From Pegea sp. RAD2-039 (Eukaryota; Chordata; Thaliacea; Salpida; Salpidae): DNA of 64,000 bases. Shown piece after piece: positions 9,701 through 60,000 of the stretch; the first letter of the stretch is position 1; each line of letters opens with the position of its first letter. Both the position numbers and the translations under genes were made by a program. The notes under the pieces were generated by a model, which saw only the letters and a program-made list of their open reading frames with translations, had not been told where the DNA came from and made no database searches. The stretch spans positions 3,224,001-3,288,000 of the forward strand of contig JAQGEQ010000071.1 of assembly GCA_034620365.1 (NCBI GenBank), given 5' to 3'.

Positions 9701-9885
9701 AAAGTTTTTAAGTTAGTTTTTCATTAGTATAATCAATATTTATGCTGATATTTTTTATTACAAATATTATGAAAAGATTAGAAAATCTTCAGTTTGTTGC
9801 CAGATAGAAAGAAGAAGATTTGTATTAATCTTTATACATTGCTGAAGTCAAAAGTTTAGATGTAAACTTATTTCTTTTATTAATA
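6726..9885. other. Intergenic region between AAK1 and CMC4
   Basis: AT-rich non-coding sequence with no credible exon on either strand. It holds a perfect TGACGTCA at 6733-6740, a GC-richer dispersed-repeat copy at about 7746-8090, and a short TA-dinucleotide run near 8385-8402. Nothing else stands out. Confidence 0.6.
7746..8090. repeat. Dispersed repeat copy A (core plus minus-strand tRNA-like B box)
   Basis: A GC-richer island. About 260 bp (7746-8010) matches, in the same orientation, the copy at 46071-46330: both share a TTCGGCCGAGAAC segment, a GGAGCTxCCAGAACGA block, TATAGTGACxAAxTGCCTAC and a TAGAA(A/G)..GTGTCT-like end. After it, on the minus strand, lies a tRNA-type B box (GGGTTCGAGCC, complement of 8065-8075) followed by an ACACATATTT segment that is also present in the other copy on the opposite strand. 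This looks like a non-autonomous, partly tRNA-derived (SINE-like) element. No protein is encoded. Confidence 0.65.
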
Positions 9886-9927
9886 GGTTCAGGTATTATT
9901 AAATATAACTTTTATTGCAAGGTAGTT

Positions 9928-10365
9928 ATGCCAAAAGCAGATCCTTGTCAAAAATACGCTTGTAAGATTCAAGATTGCCTTCAAGGTTAGTTTATTCATA
10001 AAAAATGATTTGAAGAGCTTTAAAATGTTTGTTAGTAAAATTAGCACCAACAATCAGAGTTTAAAGTAATTTACTGAAAGAGTAAATTGTAAAGTTGGTT
10101 TTCCTGAGTTATTTAAAACTAATTAAATTTTTTTTTGCTATTTTTGTTTTATAAAGTAAAACCCAATTTATCTGATTTTCTTTATCAATTATAATTATTA
10201 ATATTATTTATTAATTATAATTAATTTTTAGCAAACAATTGGCAGGAGAATAAGTGCCAAACAGCAATTGAAAATTTGAGAAAGTGCTGTGAGAGGTTTC
10301 AACATTTAAATCAAGTTTGTTGTCGAGGAATTAAACTGACAACAGATAGCAACAAAGATGATTAG
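9928..10365 (+). CDS. CMC4: CMC4, twin CX9C mitochondrial protein
   Basis: Small protein of the mitochondrial intermembrane space, imported by the Mia40 disulfide relay (family knowledge). Exons are 9928-9985 and 10232-10365, joined in phase, giving 63 residues against about 68 in human. It begins MPKADPCQKYAC and carries two exact CX9C pairs, C-QKYACKIQD-C and C-QTAIENLRK-C, plus the extra cysteines typical of CMC4. A splice-acceptor-like site ends at 9886, 41 nt upstream of the ATG. The stop TAG (10363-10365) overlaps by 8 nt the ATG (10358) of the downstream MRPL44 reading frame, so the two proteins probably share an mRNA. Identification is firm on the cysteine spacing and the start. Confidence 0.93.
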
Positions 10366-11788
10366 TTGCTATTTATCAAATCTTAGACGTCTGTCAGCTC
10401 CCCTACTACAAGCATCTTCAGCTATATTTCAAGCCAAACATACCTATGCCAAATATCCTGGTAATCCGCAGATAAAACCTTATAAGAGTATCATTCCAAA
10501 AGAACCAAGATGGAAGATTCATTGGTTAAGAGCTGTTAAAAGAAAGATGGAAATAGAAGGGGAAGAACCAAGATGTGCTCGTCGAGATAAAGGATGTTGG
10601 GATGAAGAGGCTGAAGTCAATTGCTTCAAGTCAGTAAAATAAAAGTCCCAAAATTTGAAGTAGAATTTGTTTAGAATAAAACTGTGGATATAAAAATGTT
10701 GTTGATTCTAATCACTTCTGATCTTTCATGAATTTGTAAATTCTAACCATTCAATTAGTAAATTCAAATTTTTACTAATTTTTAATACAATTTTAAATCA
10801 TTCTCTGAAAGCTGCTAGTTTATTCTATAACTCTTTTTATATACTTCCTTCTACTTAGAATATAAATATCTTATTTACTATTAGATTTTTAATGAATTTA
10901 TTTTTTCAAACTTTGTATTCAAATAAAGTAACTTAAATTGATTTGTACTATCAATAGATTTCAATCATATGAAATCACCAATTTAAAAATTGATCTCAAA
11001 TCTTCTTCTTCTTCAGAGCTCGTCTTGGCATCACAGTTGATAACAATATCCTCGCTTCAGTCTTTACATCGGACTCTTCATCTACATTAGACTCACCATC
11101 TTCTATTCAAGAACATCAAAAACTTTCTAACGAAGGCGAAGATTTCTGTAGACGTTTTATTCATCATTACATCTCTATAAGTCTTCATTCAGCCCCAGAA
11201 GAGTGTCAAAAATCAGTATATGACTATCTCCTCGAAGAAGCAAATGTAGCAAACATCGCATCACATCTAGGATTTGATGATTTAGTGAAATCACCAGTCT
11301 ACCCTCTCACTGATGACTTGTTAGTCAGCTCTTTTTATGCCAGTCTTGCAGCGATATCTCAAGCAGATGGACCTGTAGTTGCTGGTCGCTTGTTGTTAGA
11401 CTTTGTGGTTCCCCAGCTAGTTGGTAAAGACATCTTACATGATATCTGGAAACCAAAAGATCCCATGAAGCTTCTAATCAAGGAGCTGTGCAAAAGATCA
11501 CAGGAGCCTCCTGAAGCAAGACTTGTTCATGATGTAGGGATTAACACCGTGATGCCTTGCTTTGTAGTCGCTCTCTTTTCTGATAAAGAGTTTCTTGCTG
11601 AGTCCGGAGCTGAATCTATTATTCTAGCTGAGATTGATGCTGCGAAGATCGCGTTGAGAAAGATGTATAAGATTGAAGAGACGGGAAAGAGTCTTTTGAT
11701 GGGAGTTAGAGTAGATGAAGAGTTTTTGTATGAACTCTTTACACCTTTTGTTAGTAGAGAATCTTTGAAAATTAGTTTGCAAAAGTAA
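10358..11788 (+). CDS. MRPL44: Mitochondrial ribosomal protein mL44 (MRPL44)
   Basis: Large-subunit mitoribosomal protein with a degenerate RNase III fold and a dsRNA-binding domain (family knowledge). The first exon starts at 10358 with a basic, Ser/Leu-rich presumed mitochondrial presequence. It runs to about 10629 and carries the family's KPxWDxxAExxxF-like segment, here KGCWDEEAEVNCF. The last exon, 11017-11788, starts ARLGI and continues through EEANVANIASHLGFDDL, DFVVPQLVGKDILHDIW, PMKLLIKELCKRS, PPEARLVHD, SDKEFLAESGAE and EIDAAKIALRKMY, matching the second half of MRPL44 closely. About 30 residues that normally link the two parts are not placed: a small exon between 10630 and 11016 is expected but I could not settle its borders. 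An AATAAA lies at 11829-11834. Confidence 0.9.
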
Positions 11789-11828: not shown

Positions 11829-11834
11829 AATAAA
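11829..11834 (+). other. Poly(A) signal of MRPL44 (and CMC4-MRPL44 mRNA)
   Basis: AATAAA about 40 nt after the MRPL44 stop. No AATAAA-type end is needed between CMC4 and MRPL44, because their reading frames overlap. Confidence 0.6.
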
Positions 11835-17705: not shown

Positions 17706-19934
17706 AGATTTAGGAATTTAGATTTAGAAATCATGAATCTGTTCAAATATTTTGATTAAATCTTTTTTATTATTTATTTATTTATTAGAATTATGTCCTT
17801 TTTATTTGTGTAGTAGTCAGTTTTATACTGCTGGCATCATATAGCTACATAGCAAATGATGTTTACAGTATAATCTTTTGAATGTTTACAGTTAAAATGT
17901 TTTTCTTTGTTTTGTTTGAATAAAATTATTTAATCTTTGAAACTTCTGATTATGAGCAGCAAATCGAAACTTTTTTGAGGATTATCTAGTATTTTGTGAA
18001 GTTAAGTTTCAAACTATTCAAATACATGGAGAAAAAATAAGACTAGCTCTTTTAGAACATGTTTAAATCTCGCAACACCTTATAGAATTGATAAAAGTAT
18101 TATTAATATTTAAAATAATAAATTTTGAAGAATACACCATAGAAACATCTTCAATTATTCAAAGTTGCAAAATTAGATGCAATAAAATAGATATCCGTTT
18201 AGCAGTTTGTTGAAAGTTTTAAAAAGTTTTTTTTTTCAACGAAATGATGGTAAGTAAAAATATCGTTTCAGTTATTAGTTTAAATCAAAATCTTTTGGCT
18301 TTTAAGGTCACTACATAAAACTCTAATAATTTAAAACAATATTTGAATTTTATTTTTATAAAATCTAAAATTAGTTGATTTAAATCAAGAAGTAGTTTGA
18401 ATAAATTGACAAGTTAAAAAATTTGTTAAAACTAATAGATCACCAACTAGACTAAATTTTTCTTATATCAAACAACAAATTTAAAATCTATAGTTTCATT
18501 TAATGTGGTCTCAGATTCAGATTCATAGATTACAAATAATCAAGCTCAGGATTTTTCAAATCGGGGCTTGAGGACTATACTAGGCCCTAGACGAACGGCT
18601 CAATATATTTGTTAAAATATTCATTTTCGAAATTTTTTACAAAATTCTACCGAAAAACAACTTACCTACGTTGTTTATTCCATAAGATTTTTGTATAAAT
18701 TGACGGACTAAGTGATTAGTGCGAAATGATCAAAACTTGATCACAAAACTTAATTATTGTTTAGGTATCTAGCAGCATGCAGTAATTCTTAGTTCATCAT
18801 GTAGGAAAAATAAATTCATTTCTTTCCAGCATACGAAAAGATTTTTATATTAATGATACTTAAATTTTATATTCCTAGTTACCAATTTGTGCTTTATTCT
18901 AAATAACCTTTTAAATAATCAATTTTTAAAGTAGAAAATTTAACTTGTTATGATGAGGCCTAAAAAACTTTAGACAAATGAGTAAAGTATGATTAGATGT
19001 TATTCTCTGTCACTATAAAATTGTAGATAAAACCTTCAGTTACATTTCCTATCAATAAATTTTCATTATTCTTATCTGAGAAATGTTGGCTTTTAAACGG
19101 AATTTGCATTTAGATGATAGATTATCATGACAGAAACATGTTTAGCTGAAATTCATATTCACTCTGTAATTAGTAATTGTGATTTACTGTATTAAAAACC
19201 AGAAGTGAAACTTAGTTTCACTGTATAGTGATTTTACTGTTACCAACATATCAAGCTTTTAAAAAATTAAAGTTTTCAGCAGAAAAATCGGGACAAAAAC
19301 TAAGAGATTTTCGAATTAAGGTATATAGCAAGATGAATTGGAGTCTGTATTCTGTGGTAATAACAGTCGCTAAATCCAAAAGGAACTAATTTGTAAACTG
19401 ATTTAAAACAAATGCATGGAACCATAGCAAGATGAGAAACTTTTTGGATGCTGTTAATAACGACCAAGGTGACCTAATATTGTTCACAATATTTAAATGA
19501 TTCAGATATGATAAATGTTTCGAAGGATTTTGTGAACTCTTTTAAGGAAAAATAAGCTTTGCCATAATTTATAGTGACAGTATCGACTTATATTGCTTTA
19601 TTTGAAAAAAAAAATTATTGAAGAAGATAGATAGAGTATATTTTTAGTGAACAGTTACAATAAAATACAGAAATTATCGCTTGCAAAAATGAAATGAAGT
19701 TCAAATTATATTATATTATAATTATTAATATTTTTTGATGACGATTTTGCTTAACAACTATCAAACAAAATCGTGTTTATTTTTCATTACAATAAAATAC
19801 AAAAAAGTTTTGATTAATAGTGACGTCATAATACAAGTCTCTGAGATAAGTTTTAGTAATTACATAATTTACTTTCCAACTACAGTTTTACAGAAGTGAG
19901 AGTTTTTAAGATTTTACAAAAAATTTTCTTAAAA
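17706..19934. other. Intergenic region
   Basis: AT-rich sequence that holds the GALNT 3' UTR and the presumed 5' region of the downstream single-exon gene. A perfect TGACGTCA lies at 19821-19828, about 110 nt before that gene's first ATG. Nothing else is recognised. Confidence 0.5.
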
Positions 19935-21674
19935 ATGCAATCGCAACTTATTGATCTGATGAAATCTAATGAGAGGTTAGTGAAAAATCATCAAGTAGAT
20001 ATTCCATCCAAACTTAAGAACGAAGTTAAAAATGAAAATCCTTTTCCTGTTGAATTTGAAGGTAAGTTTGTTGAAGAAGATTATCGTTTTTCAATCACTG
20101 ATAACAGTACAGATAAGTTTTTTTCAGTTGATGGAAATAGTTTAGAAATAAGTTTGAATAGCAGTCTTAATGAAAATATTAATTTAGATGATAGTTCAAA
20201 CATGTTTAGTTTTACTGATCATACTTTATTTGATTCTGAACCATCTTTCAAAAGTTTACAAATAGTTAACAATTTAAATAGGAATGTTCAAACTGAACAA
20301 GATCGTAACTTTTATGGTTTTTCTGATTTGTATAAACTTTCAAGTTTTGAAACATCATTTAAAAATTTAAAAAATGACCAACAAGCAAATCTTCAAAACA
20401 AAATTAATTCAGACCAAGAAATAAATTTTAGATTAGTACCTTTTGATTATGAAAATAACTTGGAAACTTTTTTTGAAAGTTCTAATTCATTCACTACCTT
20501 ATCTCAATTAGATAGCTTAAGTTTAAGCCAAGAAGTTAAAAGTGACTTTAAATGTAATAAAAAGCTTTTGAACAATTCCCAAAAAATATATATTGTGAGT
20601 CCAACCAAACAGGCTGATACTAGAATTGCAAATAATAAAAATAAAAATCTTACTCCCAAAAAATTGATATTAAATGATGCTACAAATATTCATGATGAAA
20701 ACAGAGATAAAAAATGGAAGTTTAATCCACAAGGTTTCGGAAAATGTGAAAGTATTTTCGATAGCAGTCTTAGATCAGAATGTAATTTAGAAGATAATCT
20801 GACTTCTTTTGATTATAAATTTGCCAGTGATTGTGATTTAATCTATTCTGCACCATCTGTAGAAATTTCACAATTAATTGAAAACTTAAATGAAATTGTT
20901 CAAACTGAAGAAGAATCTAATTTAAATGAAGCAGCATCTTTTGAAAAATCTTCTAACACTCCAAAAACTGAACAAAAAATTAGTTTCACTTCTAAAGTTT
21001 GTGAGAATGAAGACACTTTTGAAACTTCTTTTGAAAATTCTGATTTATTGAGTCTTTTAACTCCATCAGATAGTTTAAACCTAGATCAGGAACTTAAATA
21101 CAACCTTGAATGTAATCTTTTAAAAGATTATATCAATTTAACCCCAATTAAGCAGATTAATATTACTACAGTAAATAGTAATGATGAAAACCTTGTTCCA
21201 AAAAAGCTGATACTAAATGATACCACAAATATCCACCATCAAAATAGAGATATAAATTGGAAGTTTAATCCACAGAATTTAAACAAATCTAAAAGTATAT
21301 TTGATAGCAGTCTTAGATCAAAATGCAGTTTAAAGAATAATCTTACTTCTTTTGATAATGAATTATCCAGTGATTGTGCTTTTATCTCTTGTAAGCCATC
21401 TGTAGAATTTGTACGATCAGTTGAAAACTTAAAAGAAGTTATTCAAACTGAAGAAAATTTTGAATTTTGTACAAACCTAGTAGGTTATAATAGAAATAAA
21501 TTCTTATCTTTTCAATGTGGTGCTCAAAATATTGATACAAATTACAATGAAAATACAAAACTATCTAATGACAGTGAACAACTTGAAACAGGTGATAATG
21601 TAAAATTATCTAGACATAAAAAGCTATTTAAATATTTCAAAAACAGAATTACCAAGTTTTTATTTCATAGATAA
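19935..21674 (+). CDS. Unrecognised single-exon low-complexity protein with internal repeats
   Basis: An open frame of about 579 residues counted from the first ATG (19935). Codons upstream to 19896 are open but lack an ATG, so an upstream exon ending at an acceptor near 19890 is possible. The product is rich in Asn, Ser, Leu, Asp and Glu, has few Trp or Cys, and ends in a basic stretch. It contains a repeat of roughly 195-205 residues. The clearest parts are KKLILNDATNIHDENRD / KKLILNDTTNIHHQNRD, KWKFNPQ / NWKFNPQ, SIFDSSLRSECNL / SIFDSSLRSKCSL, and a PS..(I/L)..NLN..VQTE motif seen three times. The first repeat copy is the most diverged. No signal peptide, membrane segment or known domain is seen. 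It looks disordered and lineage-specific, and its function is unknown. Confidence 0.75.
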   Translation: MQSQLIDLMKSNERLVKNHQVDIPSKLKNEVKNENPFPVEFEGKFVEEDYRFSITDNSTDKFFSVDGNSLEISLNSSLNENINLDDSSNMFSFTDHTLFDSEPSFKSLQIVNNLNRNVQTEQDRNFYGFSDLYKLSSFETSFKNLKNDQQANLQNKINSDQEINFRLVPFDYENNLETFFESSNSFTTLSQLDSLSLSQEVKSDFKCNKKLLNNSQKIYIVSPTKQADTRIANNKNKNLTPKKLILNDATNIHDENRDKKWKFNPQGFGKCESIFDSSLRSECNLEDNLTSFDYKFASDCDLIYSAPSVEISQLIENLNEIVQTEEESNLNEAASFEKSSNTPKTEQKISFTSKVCENEDTFETSFENSDLLSLLTPSDSLNLDQELKYNLECNLLKDYINLTPIKQINITTVNSNDENLVPKKLILNDTTNIHHQNRDINWKFNPQNLNKSKSIFDSSLRSKCSLKNNLTSFDNELSSDCAFISCKPSVEFVRSVENLKEVIQTEENFEFCTNLVGYNRNKFLSFQCGAQNIDTNYNENTKLSNDSEQLETGDNVKLSRHKKLFKYFKNRITKFLFHR

Positions 21675-31400: not shown

Positions 31401-33737
31401 TTTTATGTGATTTTTAATATTTTGCATCAACGGTTTACTTTTGCAATTTTCCAAAAATTTATTCTCAGCTGAACTTATAAACGAATTATTAAAATATTTT
31501 TAAATATAATATCAAAGCTATAATCAAGGAATTAAAAAGTTGAATAATATTATCAGCTTTATACTGATTTGGTGACCTTTGTAACCAGCCTTTTATGTTG
31601 AAAACCTAAATCAATCTTTGCTAACTTTTTGTAATAAACAAATGTCAAAATGTGATTGGAATTTGGAAAAGATTTTACAAGTACCTAGACACAATAAGAC
31701 ACAATACATGTTGTAGTGACGGAAGTATTTCACTTTTGTTATAAATTAACTCCATAACTGCAGTAGTTTGAGATAAAAGGCAACTTGCCGACTTCAGCTA
31801 GAGATGTCGTTAATAACACGTTTCGTCAACAGTGCTACAAAAGAAAACCACGTGACTACTGATTTGTACATGATTGGTTACTGAATCATATTTTACAACA
31901 ATTTCTGAAGCTCTTTCACACAAAGTTCCCTTTTTCTTTTTATTTTGAATAGATTTTTTGTTTAATAAAACTCTGCACTCTTTTGAACCAACCGCTTGTA
32001 GTTTAGTTTGTTGCAAAAAGTCGATTATTTTCTTTGTTTTTGAATAGTTCTATTTATCAACTACCGAACAGAAACTTTATAATCACTTTTGCAGATATCA
32101 TTTTGTAAAACTTTAATCAAAGATTAGATTGAAGTTTTAATTCAAACTTTTAGTATTTATTAACTGAATTATTAAATTAAACTCGATTCACAAACAGAGG
32201 GACGAGAAAAGGCTTTCATACATTCCGTGATGTCAGCAACAATAGCATATGAAGTTACAAAGTCTTGTACTAATGGGGATCTTCCAGAAGAGTGTGAATG
32301 TGCATCATTTGAAAAAAAAGATCCAGAACAGGTTTCTTATATTCATTTGTGCTTGTAAGTAGTTAGTACTTCAACATACAATTCCTATTGAAGCTTATGA
32401 TGATGATATTTTAGTAAAAGTTTCAATTAATCGATTTAATTTTTAAAGATTTTCAGAACTTGGAATTATAAAAATAACTATTTAAAAAACCCTTAAAACA
32501 AAAAAATGTTATTTTGAATTTAAATTTAATATAAAATTCGAAAGAATAGATCCACTGATGAATTATGCTTATGGCTGCAACAGCATTATTGAAATGTATA
32601 ATTTGAAGTAAGAATTTTTTGAAAATAATCATTAAAATGTCCTGCTTGGTGGCGAAGCGGTTACTACACCTAGCTACAAGGTACATCTAGCTAGGAAGTA
32701 CCGGGTTCGACCCCAGGTGGAGACATATAAAACTCCTGAGAAAAAACTATAAAAAACTCCTGAGAATGTGTGTTAGTGAGATGTGCTCTCTTTAGGCACC
32801 CTCCTTCGCATTTATATATATAAAATAAAAATAAGATAAAATTATGTGATTTTTCATCCTTAAAGAGGAGACAAGGATGCTACGTTTGCCTTTTGATAGC
32901 TCCCCATAAAACGATCCTCTGAGATCCGCCCGTTTTCCATCCGACAGACATGTCAGACCAGCGAGCCCTTTACATACTGTACATTGTAGTCAGACCAACG
33001 CGCTTTAAGACTTTCTCGGTTGAAATAAACAAAAAATATAAATAAATATTCTAATAATAATTATTAAAAAGTAGTTTTTGTTTCAGAAAGAGTTTCAGTG
33101 GCGCGGATGTTCAGATGATATTATGTTCGGAATCGAAGTTGTAAGATCATTTATTGATGATAGCATTAGACCAAAGTCTTTGCGGCAAATGATGCAGCTT
33201 CATAATAGTATCGTCAGTCAAAAGGTAATTCACTTTACAGCTGGTTGAGTATTTCAAACAGAACTCTTACAGATGTTGATGAACGCAACCGTCAAGCAGT
33301 GTAAGTGTCACGGTCTATCTGGAACCTGTTCTCAGCATATCTGTTGGAAAGCAATGCCTTCACGCACAGAAATAGGATTTAAATTGAAGGATATGTACGA
33401 AAAATCAATTCGAGTTAAGAAAAATAGAAATGGAAAGAAATTGAAAGCAGTGGATAACTCAGATAGAAATAAAGTAGAACATTCGTTGGTGTATGAAAGT
33501 GAAAGTGTGAACTTTTGTGAGCGAAATCTTAAAAAAGGTTCTTACGGAACACATGGAAGAGTTTGTAATGCAACAGATCACACAAGTAAGTTTGGATGTA
33601 ATATAATGTGCTGTAATAGAGGGTTTTATACTAGAAGTAGACTTGCAGAAAGCTCTTGTAATTGTAGTTTTACTTGGTGTTGTAAAGTTGAATGCGAAAA
33701 ATGCTTATCAGGAGTAACTGAATCATTCTGTAGATGA
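28485..33737 (+). CDS. WNT: Wnt family secreted ligand (complete, 6 exons)
   Basis: Secreted lipid-modified signal for Frizzled receptors. Exons 28485-28573, 29949-30113, 30731-30804, 32198-32331, 33087-33224 and 33273-33737 join in phase to 354 residues, which is normal Wnt length. The first exon encodes a hydrophobic signal peptide ending before TWW. Next come RRFCRSHPTIM, HWNCS, REKAFIHSVMSATIAYEVTKSC, WRGCSDDI.FG, LHNS and the hallmark KCHGLSGTC. Ser216 of that motif is the expected Porcupine palmitoleoylation site. The C-terminal cysteine-rich part is typical: GTHGRVCN, CNIMCCNRGFYTR, CNCSFTWCCKVECEKC and a final FCR. N-glycosylation sequons are visible (NCS, NAT). A splice acceptor lies only 5 nt before the ATG. 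The subfamily is not settled; Wnt4-like spacing was considered. An AATAAA is at 33917-33922. Confidence 0.95.
28842..28938 (+). other. Coding-like segment inside Wnt intron 1
   Basis: An acceptor-like TTTTTAG is followed by about 32 open codons (DKCINLLKRLSNI... in part) and a weak donor-like GTTATA; the frame stays open to 29046. The helical Leu pattern slightly recalls TFIIS-N/LEDGF-type helical bundles, but this is weak. It cannot belong to the Wnt protein, because exon 1 joins exon 2 in phase to give a normal Wnt start. It could be an exon of a nested gene, a relic, or chance. Confidence 0.25.
29480..29800. promoter_or_regulatory. GC-richer candidate regulatory island in Wnt intron 1
   Basis: About 320 bp just upstream of Wnt exon 2, visibly richer in G/C and CpG than the surrounding intron. 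It contains a perfect TGACGTCA (29611-29618), a CCAAT (around 29601) and G-rich motifs. No exon fits. An intronic enhancer or alternative promoter is possible, by inference only. Confidence 0.25.
32637..32790 (+). repeat. tRNA-derived SINE-like element in Wnt intron 4
   Basis: Pol III internal promoter boxes are clear: an A-box-like TGGCGAAGCGG at 32650-32660 and a B box GGTTCGACCCC at 32704-32714. Between them an 8-bp perfect inverted repeat, CCTAGCTA (32669-32676) and TAGCTAGG (32688-32695), could form an arm. The ends do not pair as a tRNA acceptor stem, and an AACTCCTGAGAA motif is repeated twice downstream, so this is a tRNA-derived repeat and not a tRNA gene. Confidence 0.6.
32870..33015. 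repeat. GC-richer unclassified segment in Wnt intron 4
   Basis: A GC-richer stretch directly after the SINE-like element and an AT-rich spacer. It contains two related pieces, CAGACCAGCGAGCC and CAGACCAACGCGC, about 50 bp apart. It is probably the tail of a composite repeat. No coding potential is seen. Confidence 0.3.
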
Positions 33738-46790: not shown

Positions 46791-47912
46791 TCATAGCTTC
46801 ACTACTTTACCAGCAAATAGAATCTGTTTCATCTGATTATGAAAAATAAAAAAATGGAAAGGTTGGTCACAAATGAACACTTCTGATTCCGGTTTAATGG
46901 AAAAGTTCATAACGCTACCCTTTGTAGCTAAATCAAATTTCTTTGTCCAAGTTCCATCTTCGTCGACATTTACATTAGTTTCTTGAACTATCCCGGACAC
47001 TACCATAGCTGTTGTGTACGACACTCTCGACAAATTTGCTTTGTCACCATCAAAGACCTCGTTTAGTCTCAGACCTCTTAGTACTGAAGTATAATCTCTC
47101 CCGTACTTGATACTGAACTGTGGGATAGATACGACCACATGTTTTTCAACTGCAGTTTCAATAAGGTTCAAAATTATTTCATAGTCGAAAAAATTTTGAT
47201 TTAAACCATTTTCAAGTAATATTATCCACATAGATATATTCTGATCTTCATATTTTAATTCTAGAGCAGTAGCTTGTAATAACCCGGAATACTGAATCCT
47301 GAATATTCCATCAGTTTTCATCATTTGAACGAAAGCAGAAGACCCATCCATGTTAGTAAACTTACTTGTGGTAGTCAACTCTTTAAAAAATCTAATATGC
47401 CAATTAGATTCAAACCTGCTGGTGTCTGCTACAATCAACGATGGACGAGAAGTTATCTTATTCGGCTGCACAACTGAACTTTCATTTTGTAACGAATGTC
47501 TAGCAAGCCAGTTATTTATTCTAAGTCTACAGTCTTCAAAATTATCTAACAATCCAAACTTTCGCACTTTGCAGTTGTAAATATCGCTCAGTTTTTCAAC
47601 GTAAAAATCCCTTATAGGTTTATTTGTATAAACTTTACTTGTAAAAACTAAACTCATATTAGGGTTTCTGTTAGATAATGCATCTTTAAACATTAAAATG
47701 TAGTCCACAACATCTTTTTCGTTTTTAAATTCAAGTAGATTTGTAATCTGCTGAAGTGTTGATCCACCTGCTCCTGAAGCTACGATTGAGAGCGCCGTGA
47801 AAATACCATGAGGTGAAAAAATGAAGTTGCACTCATCCTCCTGATGCTGGAGTTCTTTATAAACTTTGTTCGAAAACTTTAACGCTGATTCACAAGAATT
47901 AAAATTTTCCAT
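46791..47912 (-). CDS. SERPIN: Intracellular-type serpin, intronless, probably non-inhibitory
   Basis: Serpin-fold protein of 373 residues in one open frame, the full length of a clade-B-like serpin. There is no signal peptide, so it is likely cytosolic. Family marks: NFIFSPHGIFTALSIVASGAGGSTLQ, an N-F.S.W-type segment read here as TSRFESNWHIRFF, and a PFHFFIFHNQMKQILFAGKVVKL end. The reactive-centre hinge, normally EEGTEAAAAT, is here DEDGTWTKKFDL. The small Ala run needed for loop insertion is replaced by bulky and charged residues, so protease inhibition is doubtful (inference). The coding region has no intron, unlike its neighbours. An acceptor-like site lies 13 nt before the ATG. A TTTATT (complement of AATAAA) is at 46720-46725. 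Confidence 0.93.
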   Translation of the reverse strand: MENFNSCESALKFSNKVYKELQHQEDECNFIFSPHGIFTALSIVASGAGGSTLQQITNLLEFKNEKDVVDYILMFKDALSNRNPNMSLVFTSKVYTNKPIRDFYVEKLSDIYNCKVRKFGLLDNFEDCRLRINNWLARHSLQNESSVVQPNKITSRPSLIVADTSRFESNWHIRFFKELTTTSKFTNMDGSSAFVQMMKTDGIFRIQYSGLLQATALELKYEDQNISMWIILLENGLNQNFFDYEIILNLIETAVEKHVVVSIPQFSIKYGRDYTSVLRGLRLNEVFDGDKANLSRVSYTTAMVVSGIVQETNVNVDEDGTWTKKFDLATKGSVMNFSIKPESEVFICDQPFHFFIFHNQMKQILFAGKVVKL

Positions 47913-50900
47913 TTCTTAAGTAAGTCTGTAAAAAAAAGAACTTTTATTGATACTTTTTTAGAGTTAAAGAATTCCGGTAAATGGTCATTTGCACCTGCCT
48001 AGAAGCAAACGTTCCTCGGGCACCAAGTGTAGCAATTGTTTAAATGACAAAACAGCAAATATAGAATTAAGGAGTAAAAATGAAGCCAACTTTATCGCCC
48101 AATAGTGCAAGAATAAGCTTATACATCGAGATTACTTAATTCATTAAAGTGTCAAAACTGTTCAGAAAATATTTTAACAAGTTGTAGTATTAACTGTATT
48201 ATATAATTCATCATCAGTATATCGCAATAAATTATTTGTGATTTTACTCAAAAAGAAATGAGTATTTGTTTATCAAGTTTGATATCCAAAAAATTACATT
48301 TGAATAGATTGAAAAAATTTGAATTAATTTCTGGATCAATTTTACAAAAATAAACACTCACAATCATTTTGAATTTGCTTTTGTTAGAAAAATGCCTTTT
48401 CATAGATTAAAAGTAACAACACGAACAGAAAATACAAGCCACCAAAGTTTTCATTAAGTATCGAAAATAAGAATTAACAATTCCTAATTACAGAAAAGTT
48501 ATTATTATTATAATAAAATATACAACGATAATAAAGCTAAATTAAGCTTTTAAACAAAATATAACTAACATTGTTAAATTTGACAAAATTTGTGTACAAT
48601 TAATAGTAGAATTTCTGTGTGACTTCCATCATTGATTCATGCATTAGACTGTTTCCTCACTATTTAAAATCAAATTCTTTTACTGTTTTGTAACAAGAAC
48701 TTTAATAATAATTATTTAAAAAATTTACGACAGCATTTTAAACTGAGTAGCAATTGATATAAAAATCAAACTCAATAAACTAAAAATTGTATCAGCTTAA
48801 AAACTTTTCAATTCTAATTTTAAACCAAGCCTACGCTTATCAATACAGCAAACAGCTATGCTAAAGTCCTTCAACTGACCAACAAATAAATGACCATCAG
48901 ATAATTCTAATTACATTACTAAAGTGAAACATATCAAGCTAATGTAAAGCTTGTTTTAGGAGTTCTCGGTACTGCATATGTTAATAAGTAACTATTCATT
49001 ACTAGAAATTCCATTTGTTTTCAAAAATTTATGAGGATTTAAAAATCACTTTTGAAAAATTTTTGTTTGACTGCTGGCTAATGATTATATAACGATGTTT
49101 TATGGGAAGCGCAAACAACTGATAAATATCAATAACTATCTATCAATTAGTATTAAAATATAGTTATATCACAATGTAAGGTTACAATTTTTCTACTCTA
49201 GAATACCTATTTGTCTTTAAAACAAGGTTCATTACTCTTGAAATTTTTTACTGATATTAATTGTTACACAGAACAGACGAATCATCGTTTCCTACCAGGC
49301 AAATATGAAAAAAAACATTTTCTAACAAACTAAAATTTACAAATTTTAAAATACTATCTTAAAATAATCTAATGCTTTATAGACAATACAAATGAATAAA
49401 AGTAAGATTATAAAATTAATAACACTGACTATGGTTCAGATCATTAGTCAGCATTTAGTAGTTGTAAAAAGTACAAAGTAATCGTAACGCCTAAATATCA
49501 AAATCGCATTTAATTCACTATAATTTTGCTTTTATCTGCTAGCTCATTGAATAATTTTATTTCTATTGAATAAGTTTTATTGCATGCTGAAATGTAGCTA
49601 ACATTGTTTCTTTTGCTACACATCGATCATAAATGGTTTTATTATCATAATACAATAGAACTTTCATTTAACTGCTACATTATTTTTAAGTGGCTTTTTT
49701 AAACACACAATTTAAATTAAAACACATTTAGTAGTCAACCAAAACTTACCAAGCATGTTTTTTCACATATGTTGTTTTAGTTCCGCTTTTAACTCTAATT
49801 TATAGTTTGTTACTTTAATATCTTACTTAAAGTATACTATCAACACCAAGGTTTTTTATACATACAAGCCATCTGTATTCTTTGTCTGGTTTTTTATTAG
49901 GATAAAAAGTTCAACAGATCCATGTTATAAATCAGAGAAAAAAAGTAAATAAAATATTTCAATAAGTTCTTTATAATAAGACTGTATAGTTTTATGTTTT
50001 AGAGGTTTTTAAAAATATATATTTTGAAAAAGTGTACTAAGGCGGTTAATACCTAGTTTTAAAAGCATTATAAATTAATTGAAGCAAATTGAAAATATAC
50101 TACTGTCGATATACTCTTATTAATATATAAATTAGTACTTGAAATTAAAAACTGTTTGACATTTTTTTCAAAGTATTTTATTTTAAAAGTAATTTTATGA
50201 TTAAATTTGATTATTGGTGCGGCAATAGTTATAAACATTTAACAGATAAAAGTATTTTTTGAATAACGATCATTAGGTGTAGATGCCTTTACTAACCACT
50301 AACAATTTTTGTACAATAATACAAAGTTGTGAATTTTAAGATATCTAGCAGATTTTATTAATTTGTTCGTGAGTTTTCATTCAGTAGTCTTTCAAAAGTA
50401 ATTAGTTATTTTAGAGAATATCTTAGAATTTTTTTTTATTTAAATCAATAGTTTTTATTCCATAGAAAAACTTTTTCCAATATCTTTTATTTTGTATTAT
50501 GTTTTAATTTATTAACAGTTTTATTTAGATAATATTATTAAAATATTGTTTTTGGATGAATTATCCAAAATTTTATATTTTTAAGTTAAACAAGAATTAA
50601 TATTTTCAAGCTAAAAAAAGCAAGTACATTTTAATTGTAGCAATATAATTTTAGATATATTTTTATTATCAAAGTCTTTATCTAAAATTTTCAGTGCATT
50701 TATTATATTCTAAATAGATGAAGTTAAGTTTTTAATTTTGTTTAATCTTTCAATTTATTTTAAAATTTATAATTTTTCATTTATCTTTCATAATTTTGAT
50801 TGTGTTTTAATCATTAAAATTTCAAATTTATTTTTTATAATATTTTTTTCAATTCTATTATTTATCAATAAAATAATTTTATATAGTTTTTTTTTATAAA

Positions 50901-57077: not shown

Positions 57078-60000
57078 ATGAAGGTTCTCTACTTGATACT
57101 GCTGATAAATGTAAGTAAATTGTATTTTCAATAGCATTTAGGTTATAACCTATACAAAATATTATACTTTAAAGATGCTATATATGTAAGGTATATACTT
57201 ATCACTAAATACTTAAATAGAATTAAATCATTTACAAACTTCTGTATCTGTTCCTTTATAACTCTTGAAAACTTATTTACGAGTTACTATTAATAGCTGC
57301 ATAGTTATTCAAACTCAGCATTTAAATTCATATTAAGTATAAATCTAAACCGAAACACAAACTAACTGTAAAAAAATCTTTTTATTTTTTATTCAGATAG
57401 CTGTTATTTCTTCTGTGAGCTGTGAGTAAACTTATTTCTTACTGACAAATGTTTTTGAAATAATTATTTATTTTACGTAGAGAATAATCTAGTTATCATT
57501 TTTTAAGCGTACCCTATTCAACTGTTTATATATATATCGTTCGTTGAAAATAAGTTTTATAAAAAGATGGCTCATACTGTTTAACTTATGTTGAAAAAAT
57601 TTCTAGCTGCTAAGAACTTCATTAATTAGATTTATTTTGTGTCTCATCATTATGTTTCTGAAACTAATTATATAAAAGTGTTAAAATTTTTATTCTATAT
57701 ATTGTACATATATTCAAAGCAGTGATGGTAATTCTCAAGTTTCTTGTTACTTTTAAAAAACTTTAAAAATGTTATTCTTTAAATTAATTTATTTAAAAAA
57801 TTAAAATTTCGTTAAAAATATAAATTTTTTAAAACAAACTTTGAGTATTTGATTTTTGTTTATTTAAAATTAAACTAATATTAAATTCTAGCTCATAGAA
57901 TGAAAAGAGATTGGGTCTACCCAACATTTATAGTCTTCGAAAATATAAATGGAGAAACATTTACACGAAAAAACCTCGGATTTGTAAGTAACTTGAAATT
58001 AATGAATCAAAAAAAAAGTTTTATTTAACTTCAAAATTTTCAAACTTGCTAACAACAAGTTAATTAAAAAATTTTTTTACTCTTGCTTTGATCAACAGGC
58101 AGTAAAACGAGAAGAAAAAGAAGTTGAAAGTTTTAAGCTAGTTGAAAAGTATGAACCCAAGGGCGTGTTTACAATTGAAACTATTAACAAGGAAGGGTTC
58201 ATTTATCAAGAGAAGCCACTTGATCGAGAAAAGAAAGAATTATACGAAATGGAAGTGTGGGGGTTGGATGAAAATGGAGAACCAGTACCCCCTGCTGGTG
58301 AAATTACAATAAGAGTTAAAGATTTAAATGATAATAGCCCTGTTTTTATTGATGCTACTTTAAGAGCAACTGTCCCAGAAGACGCTAATATAGGTAAGAC
58401 GCAGTTTCGATTCTGTAATACTTTCTAACCTGTAAATATATGTTATCTGATAAATTAAATTGGTTTAGCAATATATAAGTTTCTACAATTTGCTTTTTTG
58501 TAGATTACTGTTTCCACACAATAAACGCAACAGATGCTGACTCACCGGATGAGGTTATTGAGTTCACCAAATATCCTAACAGTGAAAATCCTAAAGGAAA
58601 CCGTTTTGAAGTGAGGCCTAATGGTGAATTGATAGTGAAAGCTAGTCTAGAAGCTGATGTATCTGAGGAAACATTGAGTTTAGTGACATTTAAAGTAAAA
58701 GCTCAAGATGCTAATGGAAAAGGACCTGGTTAGTTTAGAAAAGATCTTTGAATTTTACAATTATTTTTGTATTTCAAAATGACTGCTATCTATTATTACA
58801 GGTTATAATCAAACTATTTGTTTTGTAGGTATCACTAATGCTACAGTGACTGTTCGTATCACTGATGCTAATGATCATGCTCCAAAGTTTTTAAAACCAT
58901 CTTATGAATGTGATGTAGATGAAAATGAGTTGTTAAACCAACCTTTACAAATGTGCTCACTAGAAGCAGAAGATGAAGACTCCTTGGGAATAAATAAAGC
59001 TGTGAGGAATTTAAAAATCATATACCAAATACTTTAAATTGATTTAAGAAACGGAAAGTTACTTTACAAAGCTGTAATTATCAAAGAAGTTTATTTCTAA
59101 TTTTCGTATTTAAAAAATGTTTCAAACTTTTTATTTTCAATTTGAATCTAATATTTTCAGACATATTTTAAAATTGTTGGTGGAAACGCGATGGAAAATT
59201 TTGGAATAAATTCGTTCCCAAGTGACTCTGGAGTAAGCTCAGCAAAGCTATTTGTAAAAAAGAATCTTGACTTTGAAAGTCCTCCACAACAATATGTTCT
59301 GACTGTTGTGGCTTACAACAAGCAAGCAAGCAACTCTGACATCGAGCTTTTTCAAGTGAGTAATTTGTTTAAGACTAGCAGATACACAAACTAGAGACTT
59401 GTTTTAATATTTTTAGAATCGTGTGAAACTTACTGTAAATGTCAAAGACAACAACGAAGCTCCAGTTTTTTTGGAACAGCCTTACAAAGGTACAATCGGT
59501 GAAAATGTGAATTATATTCAACAATTAAAACAGCCAGTGTCAGCAAGAGATTATGATTTTAATGGTGATAATGTCACGTGAGTTCCTATTTTCAGTCAGA
59601 CAGTGAAATAAATAAATGTTTTCACGACTATTAGAGAAAAGTTTGAATTTAATCAATTATTAACTTTGTAGGTATGAAGTACTACCTCCAGGAAATAAAT
59701 GGTTTGAGATCAACCATGATGGATTTATAAGTGTAAAGAAAGATTTTGATCGTGAAAATCAAGAAGTGCTGAGCAATTTAAATAATTTAGGAGTCTACAA
59801 TCTTCGAATCAAAGCTTCTGATTCATGTTTGTTAAACGAAACCTGAGTTTAATGGAATTTAACTTCAATTTTTTGAATAGATGGTTTGAATTCTGTTGCT
59901 AGTTATTTTATTACTATTAATGATGACAATGATAATCCTCCAATGCCTCATGGAGACGGTTGGGATGTGGCCATATGTGATCAGATTAAAACTAATGATA

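Follow-up and report, generated by a model that had tools for sequence, protein, structure and literature searches.

The genes for CMC4 and MRPL44 of Pegea sp. RAD2-039 overlap on the same strand, with the last codons of CMC4 containing the start codon of MRPL44. Both genes lie on the forward strand of the window, as we call the whole 64-kb stretch of DNA that was analysed (positions 3,224,001-3,288,000 of contig C1; 27% GC). The CMC4 frame has GATGATTAG as its 3' end, with the MRPL44 ATG inside, and the MRPL44 frame is shifted +1 relative to that of CMC4. An overlap of 8 nt had been described in a sequence-only reading of this DNA, and we could confirm it with exact coordinates. Since CMC4 ends 8 nt inside the start of MRPL44, both frames are probably carried by one mRNA, and judging from the layout of the sequence, a mature mRNA that holds the two frames in full is likely. 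Two proteins encoded on one mRNA are unusual in animals, and the current picture of tunicate operons is one of abutting genes that are separated by spliced leader (SL) trans-splicing. Overlapping frames, however, cannot be cut at their boundary without harm to one of them. Consequently, either two proteins are made from one animal mRNA, or RNA processing delivers one or the other. As both genes are conserved and each has a single match in the assembly, the locus represents a clean and testable case.

Structure and identity of the two genes

CMC4 comprises two coding exons that encode 63 amino acids, from the ATG at 9928 to the TAG at 10363-10365 (Table 1). The spliced protein matched PF08991 with an E-value of 1.4e-16 and 60.9 bits (curated cut-off 28.9) and PDB entry 1hp8 with an E-value of 4.9e-16, the latter aligned over residues 1-60. 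Because the PF08991 match spans residues 6-60 of 63, the CMC4 stop lies approximately where the family ends. An alternative splicing of CMC4 leading to a fusion was considered as well and rejected, since exon-1 ends at 9984 or 9983, joined to the acceptor at 10232, run into stops inside CMC4 exon 2.

MRPL44 consists of two coding exons too and encodes 347 amino acids between the ATG at 10358 and the stop ending at 11788. It matched both mL44 domains above their cut-off of 27, the endonuclease-type domain PF22935 (E-value 7.2e-22, 78.4 bits) and the dsRNA-binding domain PF22892 (E-value 4.2e-7, 30.5 bits), and the general dsrm family PF00035 reached 20.7 bits, under its cut-off of 23. The best PDB alignment was obtained with the mL44 chain 3j7y_c of what we take to be a human structure (E-value 5.1e-36, query residues 24-313 to chain residues 9-310). 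Taken together, Pfam and PDB matches cover most of the length of both proteins. In protein searches of the 105.7-Mb, 387-contig assembly, in which only the best candidates were scored, the two exons described here were the sole matches for CMC4, and the same was true of the two MRPL44 exons. The intron boundaries of both genes were taken from the sequence together with the protein match. If the MRPL44 intron were retained, the frame would stop at 10642 and give a 94-aa protein.

Table 1. Features of the CMC4-MRPL44 locus (positions in the window; a slash marks a splice boundary)
Feature	Position	Strand	Evidence	Details
Candidate SL acceptor ahead of CMC4	9885..9886	+	by inspection	tttcttttattaatag/GTTCAG; 13/17 pyrimidines, 11 T
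CMC4 coding exon 1	9928..9985	+	protein search of assembly; PF08991 on spliced protein
CMC4 intron	9986..10231	+		donor AAG/GTTAGT, acceptor aatttttag/C (TTTTTAG/CAA); 246 nt
CMC4 coding exon 2	10232..10365	+	protein search, Pfam	stop TAG 10363-10365
ATTAAA in CMC4 exon 2, possible poly(A) signal	10330..10335	+		could end a CMC4-only mRNA about at its stop; may be chance
CMC4/MRPL44 overlap	10358..10365	+		ATGATTAG; 8 nt; MRPL44 start 10358-10360, CMC4 stop 10363-10365
MRPL44 coding exon 1, presequence-like N-terminus	10358..10629	+	protein search, Pfam, PDB
MRPL44 intron	10630..11016	+		CAA/GTCAGT...CTTCTTCAG/AGC; contains AATAAA 10638, 10675, 10922
MRPL44 coding exon 2 and stop	11017..11788	+	protein search, Pfam, PDB
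AATAAA, likely poly(A) signal of the whole unit	11829..11834	+		41 nt past MRPL44 stop

The position of the MRPL44 start codon is decisive for the overlap. A TGA at 10337-10339 interrupts the frame upstream of the ATG at 10358, without any other ATG between the two. The first 48 residues of the protein comprise neither aspartate nor glutamate, yet seven lysine or arginine residues; at the acidic frequency of the remaining MRPL44 protein (16%), 48 residues would lack aspartate and glutamate with a chance of about 2e-4. This composition makes a presequence that starts at the 10358 ATG credible, in line with what had been read from the sequence before. An additional upstream coding exon joined to MRPL44 exon 1 is possible, although nothing calls for one.

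Further genes were recognized in the window: a serpin in one open frame (46794-47915, - strand), a Wnt exon (33249-33734, + strand), cadherin exons (58006-58730, + strand; one just reaches the curated cut-off, the other falls short of it) and a sub-threshold kinase match (921-1175, + strand). Moreover, an open frame of 604 amino acids (19860-21671, + strand) appears by eye to consist of two similar halves and gave no Pfam match at E-values up to 0.01. The search of the 64-kb window against Rfam delivered no match at the gathering threshold.

A probable shared mRNA and its two start codons

Since the MRPL44 ATG precedes the CMC4 stop, each complete CMC4 mRNA includes the MRPL44 ATG, and neither AATAAA nor ATTAAA occurs from the CMC4 stop through the end of MRPL44 exon 1. 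To this extent, the dicistronic mRNA proposed earlier is supported. However, an RNA with two frames is not forced, because the ATTAAA at 10330, 35 nt ahead of the end of the CMC4 stop, could direct cleavage approximately at this stop and thus end a CMC4-only mRNA; the usual distance from poly(A) signal to cleavage is 10-30 nt. The three AATAAA hexamers in the MRPL44 intron could terminate a CMC4-only mRNA as well. With four such hexamers at hand, the statement that a poly(A) site would not fit went too far.

How could both proteins be made from such an mRNA? We propose that CMC4 and MRPL44 might form a single transcription unit, the cis-spliced mRNA of which would hold both frames and would perhaps be SL-capped at 9886, a few tens of bases 5' of the CMC4 ATG. 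The first AUG would serve CMC4, while scanning ribosomes that bypass it would start MRPL44 at the second AUG, instead of reinitiating past the CMC4 stop. We infer the RNA species, the SL at 9886 and the scanning step, and as a whole, this combination of a shared cis-spliced mRNA with leaky scanning to MRPL44 is put forward tentatively, at somewhat below an even chance.

The distribution of ATGs within CMC4 is consistent with leaky scanning. The spliced CMC4 frame of 192 nt contains ATGs at positions 1 (its own) and 185 (that of MRPL44) only. If synonymous codons were resampled according to the usage of the two genes, 2.9 internal ATGs were expected and none occurred in 1.5% of 5000 trials, while synonymous shuffling within CMC4 gave an expectation of 2.4 ATGs and none in 1.7%; as a post hoc test of one gene, this depletion is modest. 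As a control, 6.3% of 287 overlapping 180-nt segments from the MRPL44 coding sequence were free of ATGs, and each CMC4 exon considered by itself lacked ATGs in 11% of trials. The depletion fits leaky scanning, or the use of exon 2 as a leader after SL joining at 10231, and does not require reinitiation: an ATG-free CMC4 exon 2 is equally expected as the MRPL44 leader after trans-splicing. Termination-reinitiation, one of two modes named in the sequence-only reading, is not the most economical one, since the MRPL44 AUG is the next AUG after that of CMC4, which suits leaky scanning.

The start contexts were compared with those of 29 long open reading frames from 264 kb (the window plus positions 1,000,001-1,200,000 of contig C1), a small and unvetted reference that may include frames of mobile elements. 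MRPL44 carries the commonest bases of this set, A at -3 (14/29) and G at -1 (13/29), whereas CMC4 has G at -3 (5/29), T at -1 (5/29) and C at +4. Under general animal rules, a purine at -3 provides an adequate start context. Leakage at CMC4 thus need not be high, because its -3 base is a purine.

The same 264 kb were scanned for overlapping pairs of frames of at least 60 amino acids. Five pairs were found, each of them within the 200-kb segment of C1 outside the window, with overlaps of 4, 26, 26, 11, and 8 nt. By eye, two of the five are presumably inverted copies of one elongation-factor-1-alpha-like exon that runs into its intron, two others we take to be broken LINE-type elements, and the fifth is of low complexity. 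Thus no second convincing pair of the CMC4-MRPL44 type was present among frames of at least 60 amino acids in 264 kb, a scan to which short upstream genes are invisible and which misses CMC4-MRPL44 itself, because CMC4 exon 2 is open for only 46 amino acids. In the same 200 kb, some pairs of open reading frames occur in both orientations, including the elongation-factor-1-alpha-like exon, the two copies of which encode the same protein; a recent inverted duplication would produce such a pattern. Three control loci were inspected in addition, too few to gauge how usual overlaps are: the main locus of URM1 has no abutting partner frame within 3.3 kb, and neither of two CHCH matches is accompanied by a long frame that starts at its stop. 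URM1 is listed as an operon gene in Ciona (PMC2760879). COX1 was looked for and not found.

Spliced leaders and possible alternative routes to MRPL44

The tunicate setting, which the earlier interpretation had presupposed, is supported by the assembly. The Ciona spliced leader is given as the 16-mer ATTCTATTTGAATAAG (PMC7986045). With up to one mismatch, it was found 358 times in forward and 323 times in reverse orientation, compared to 17 and 12 hits of the backward pattern. On contig C4 the 16-mer occurs in tandem units of about 199 bp, and a splice donor, GTAAGT, directly follows all 13 copies in the analysed C4 segment (L015) and all four at the start of contig C11 (L018). These tandem arrays point to SL trans-splicing in this tunicate. 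An AGGAG...CTCCT hairpin was seen by eye in the SL RNA-like units of the array at C4:1,135,044-1,142,217, part of which is L015, and in those at the start of C11 (L018), which are likewise about 199 bp long, and Rfam gave no match to the L015 array at E-values up to 1. Outside of the arrays, 16-mers at C1:3,478,900-3,479,900 (L016) and C1:936,200-936,800 (L017, two copies 22 nt apart) are followed by a common tract, ggttataggtt...ttaggataacaaatttattctgatat..., in place of GTAAGT. Such copies may represent a second class of SL RNA or mobile copies that bear the SL.

Where an SL might be joined can be narrowed down from the AGs around both start codons. The candidate at 9886 lies 41 nt 5' of the CMC4 ATG with no ATG in between. 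The AGs closest to the MRPL44 ATG (10345, 10349, and 10357), all within CMC4 coding sequence, are preceded by 5, 6, and 5 pyrimidines in 17 positions, respectively, while the MRPL44 intron acceptor has 14 of 17. At the CMC4 intron acceptor (10231) 10 of 17 positions are pyrimidines, all of them T, and no ATG follows up to 10358. The AGs at 10315 and 10327 (10/17 and 9/17 pyrimidines, 7 T each) look like poorer acceptor candidates. Judging from base composition, the acceptor at 10231 is thus the most T-rich candidate for an SL joining that could give an MRPL44-only mRNA. Accordingly, the earlier exclusion of a trans-splice acceptor applies to the three nearest AGs, which are poor, but not to 10231, which could take an SL, nor to the AGs at 10315 and 10327.

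An operon resolved inside CMC4 has to be weighed against leaky scanning. An SL joined at 10231, or at another AG of exon 2, would give an mRNA for MRPL44 only, with CMC4 exon 2 as its leader, while cis-splicing would give CMC4, the two being alternative outcomes of one pre-mRNA. With the SL at 10231, CMC4 exon 1 would be lost and 10358 would become the first ATG. We consider this possible, albeit unlikely. It fits to the SL RNA-like tandem arrays in the genome and to the T-rich tract at 10231, from where no ATG occurs up to 10358. In Ciona, according to one report, trans-splicing prefers the first functional acceptor, often the first cis-acceptor, and weak first donors are a mark of it (PMC11155486). 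However, the upstream AG at 9886 is richer in pyrimidines than 10231 and the three AGs nearest to the MRPL44 ATG have poor tracts. Furthermore, Ciona operon genes abut at the AG that ends the upstream gene (PMC6836712), whereas here the candidate AGs lie inside the CMC4 coding sequence or intron.

The strength of the CMC4 donor, AAG/GTTAGT, bears on the same question. Among 167 long open segments, the ends showed no enrichment of AGGTT relative to the antisense strand (21 vs 29) but an enrichment of AGGTA (32 vs 10), as predicted if AAG/GTT were a weak donor. In contrast, at the same ends the hexamer GTTAGT (14 vs 5) behaved approximately like GTAAGT (13 vs 6), which is of opposite sign. Throughout all 264 kb, GTTAGT (158) and GTAAGT (187) did not exceed their reversed controls (237 and 199). 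The hexamer and AGGTT counts thus point in opposite directions as to the weakness of the CMC4 donor.

If either leaky scanning or SL joining applied, one pre-mRNA could act as a switch between the twin-CX9C protein CMC4 and the mitoribosomal protein MRPL44. This would be a true dicistronic nuclear mRNA in an SL-using chordate, encoding two conserved mitochondrial proteins in overlapping frames, and the ratio of both products would depend on leaky scanning and/or on whether one and the same acceptor is used for cis-splicing or for joining the SL. So broad a reading we regard as doubtful at this stage, though worth stating.

Less probable still are separate mRNAs, in which MRPL44 would be transcribed from a promoter in the CMC4 intron or exon 2, and/or CMC4 would be polyadenylated early, either at its own stop by means of the ATTAAA at 10330 or within the MRPL44 intron. 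The ATTAAA and the AATAAA hexamers at 10638, 10675, and 10922 would suit early polyadenylation. However, such hexamers are expected to be frequent by chance at 27% GC, and a hypothetical promoter would be confined to the 246-nt CMC4 intron or to coding sequence. Termination-reinitiation, by which ribosomes finishing at the CMC4 UAG would back up to the overlapping AUG as in some viral dicistronic RNAs, is very unlikely: the close overlap of stop and start resembles the UAAUG of influenza B M1/BM2 (PMC3035654), but reinitiation would not need an AUG-free CMC4, and the CMC4 RNA folds little better than its shuffles (z -1.12; 27 of 200 shuffles equally or more stable). Least probable of all is an artefact with the real MRPL44 start or CMC4 end elsewhere, due to an unseen upstream exon or an assembly indel. 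In its favour, MRPL44 residues 1-23 are not backed by homology, given that the top PDB match sets in at query residue 24. Against it, the CMC4 Pfam match reaches residue 60 of 63, the basic N-terminus free of aspartate and glutamate begins at the MRPL44 ATG and the mL44 alignment starts at chain residue 9.

Comparison with known systems

Among open-access titles and the beginnings of abstracts, no literature on a CMC4-MRPL44 pair was found. Two-gene units are the commonest operons in Ciona (1,079 of 1,310; PMC2760879). The genes of Ciona operons abut, and the AG that ends the upstream gene is the acceptor of the downstream gene (PMC2760879, PMC6836712). CMC4 and MRPL44 resemble such SL-resolved operons, as they share the same strand without intergenic DNA in a genome that contains the same 16-nt SL (PMC2760879, PMC6836712, PMC7986045). 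In contrast to Ciona operons, the coding frames overlap and the CMC4 stop lies inside MRPL44. If judged by operon features, the genes are on the same strand and less than 100 bp apart (the frames overlap by 8 bp) and SL RNA-like genes are found in the genome. However, CMC4 does not end in an acceptor AG for MRPL44, since its stop lies inside MRPL44 and the closest AGs (10345, 10349, and 10357) are within the CMC4 coding sequence. Thus the pair fails a defining feature of Ciona-type operons, yet it may be transcribed as an operon.

In the human genome, MTCP1 lies in the first CMC4 intron, and both genes have a common 5' UTR and two distinct transcripts (PMC8566464). CMC4 shares a transcription unit with another gene there as well, but the partner and the geometry are different from those described here. 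Influenza B M1/BM2 (PMC3035654) is similar in that the stop of the first open reading frame overlaps the start of the second, whereas in CMC4-MRPL44 there is no sign that reinitiation is needed.

Besides these, bicistronic genes of green algae that depend on leaky scanning are characterized by a short first open reading frame, a depletion of ATGs before the second and a weaker context of the first start (PMC11291117). Their mechanism was tested in vivo, whereas our proposal comes from sequence alone and concerns an animal with trans-splicing, in which the frames overlap by 8 nt. CMC4-MRPL44 resembles the green-algal genes in its short first and longer second frame, in the lack of any AUG between both starts and perhaps in a weaker-looking context of the first one (PMC11291117).
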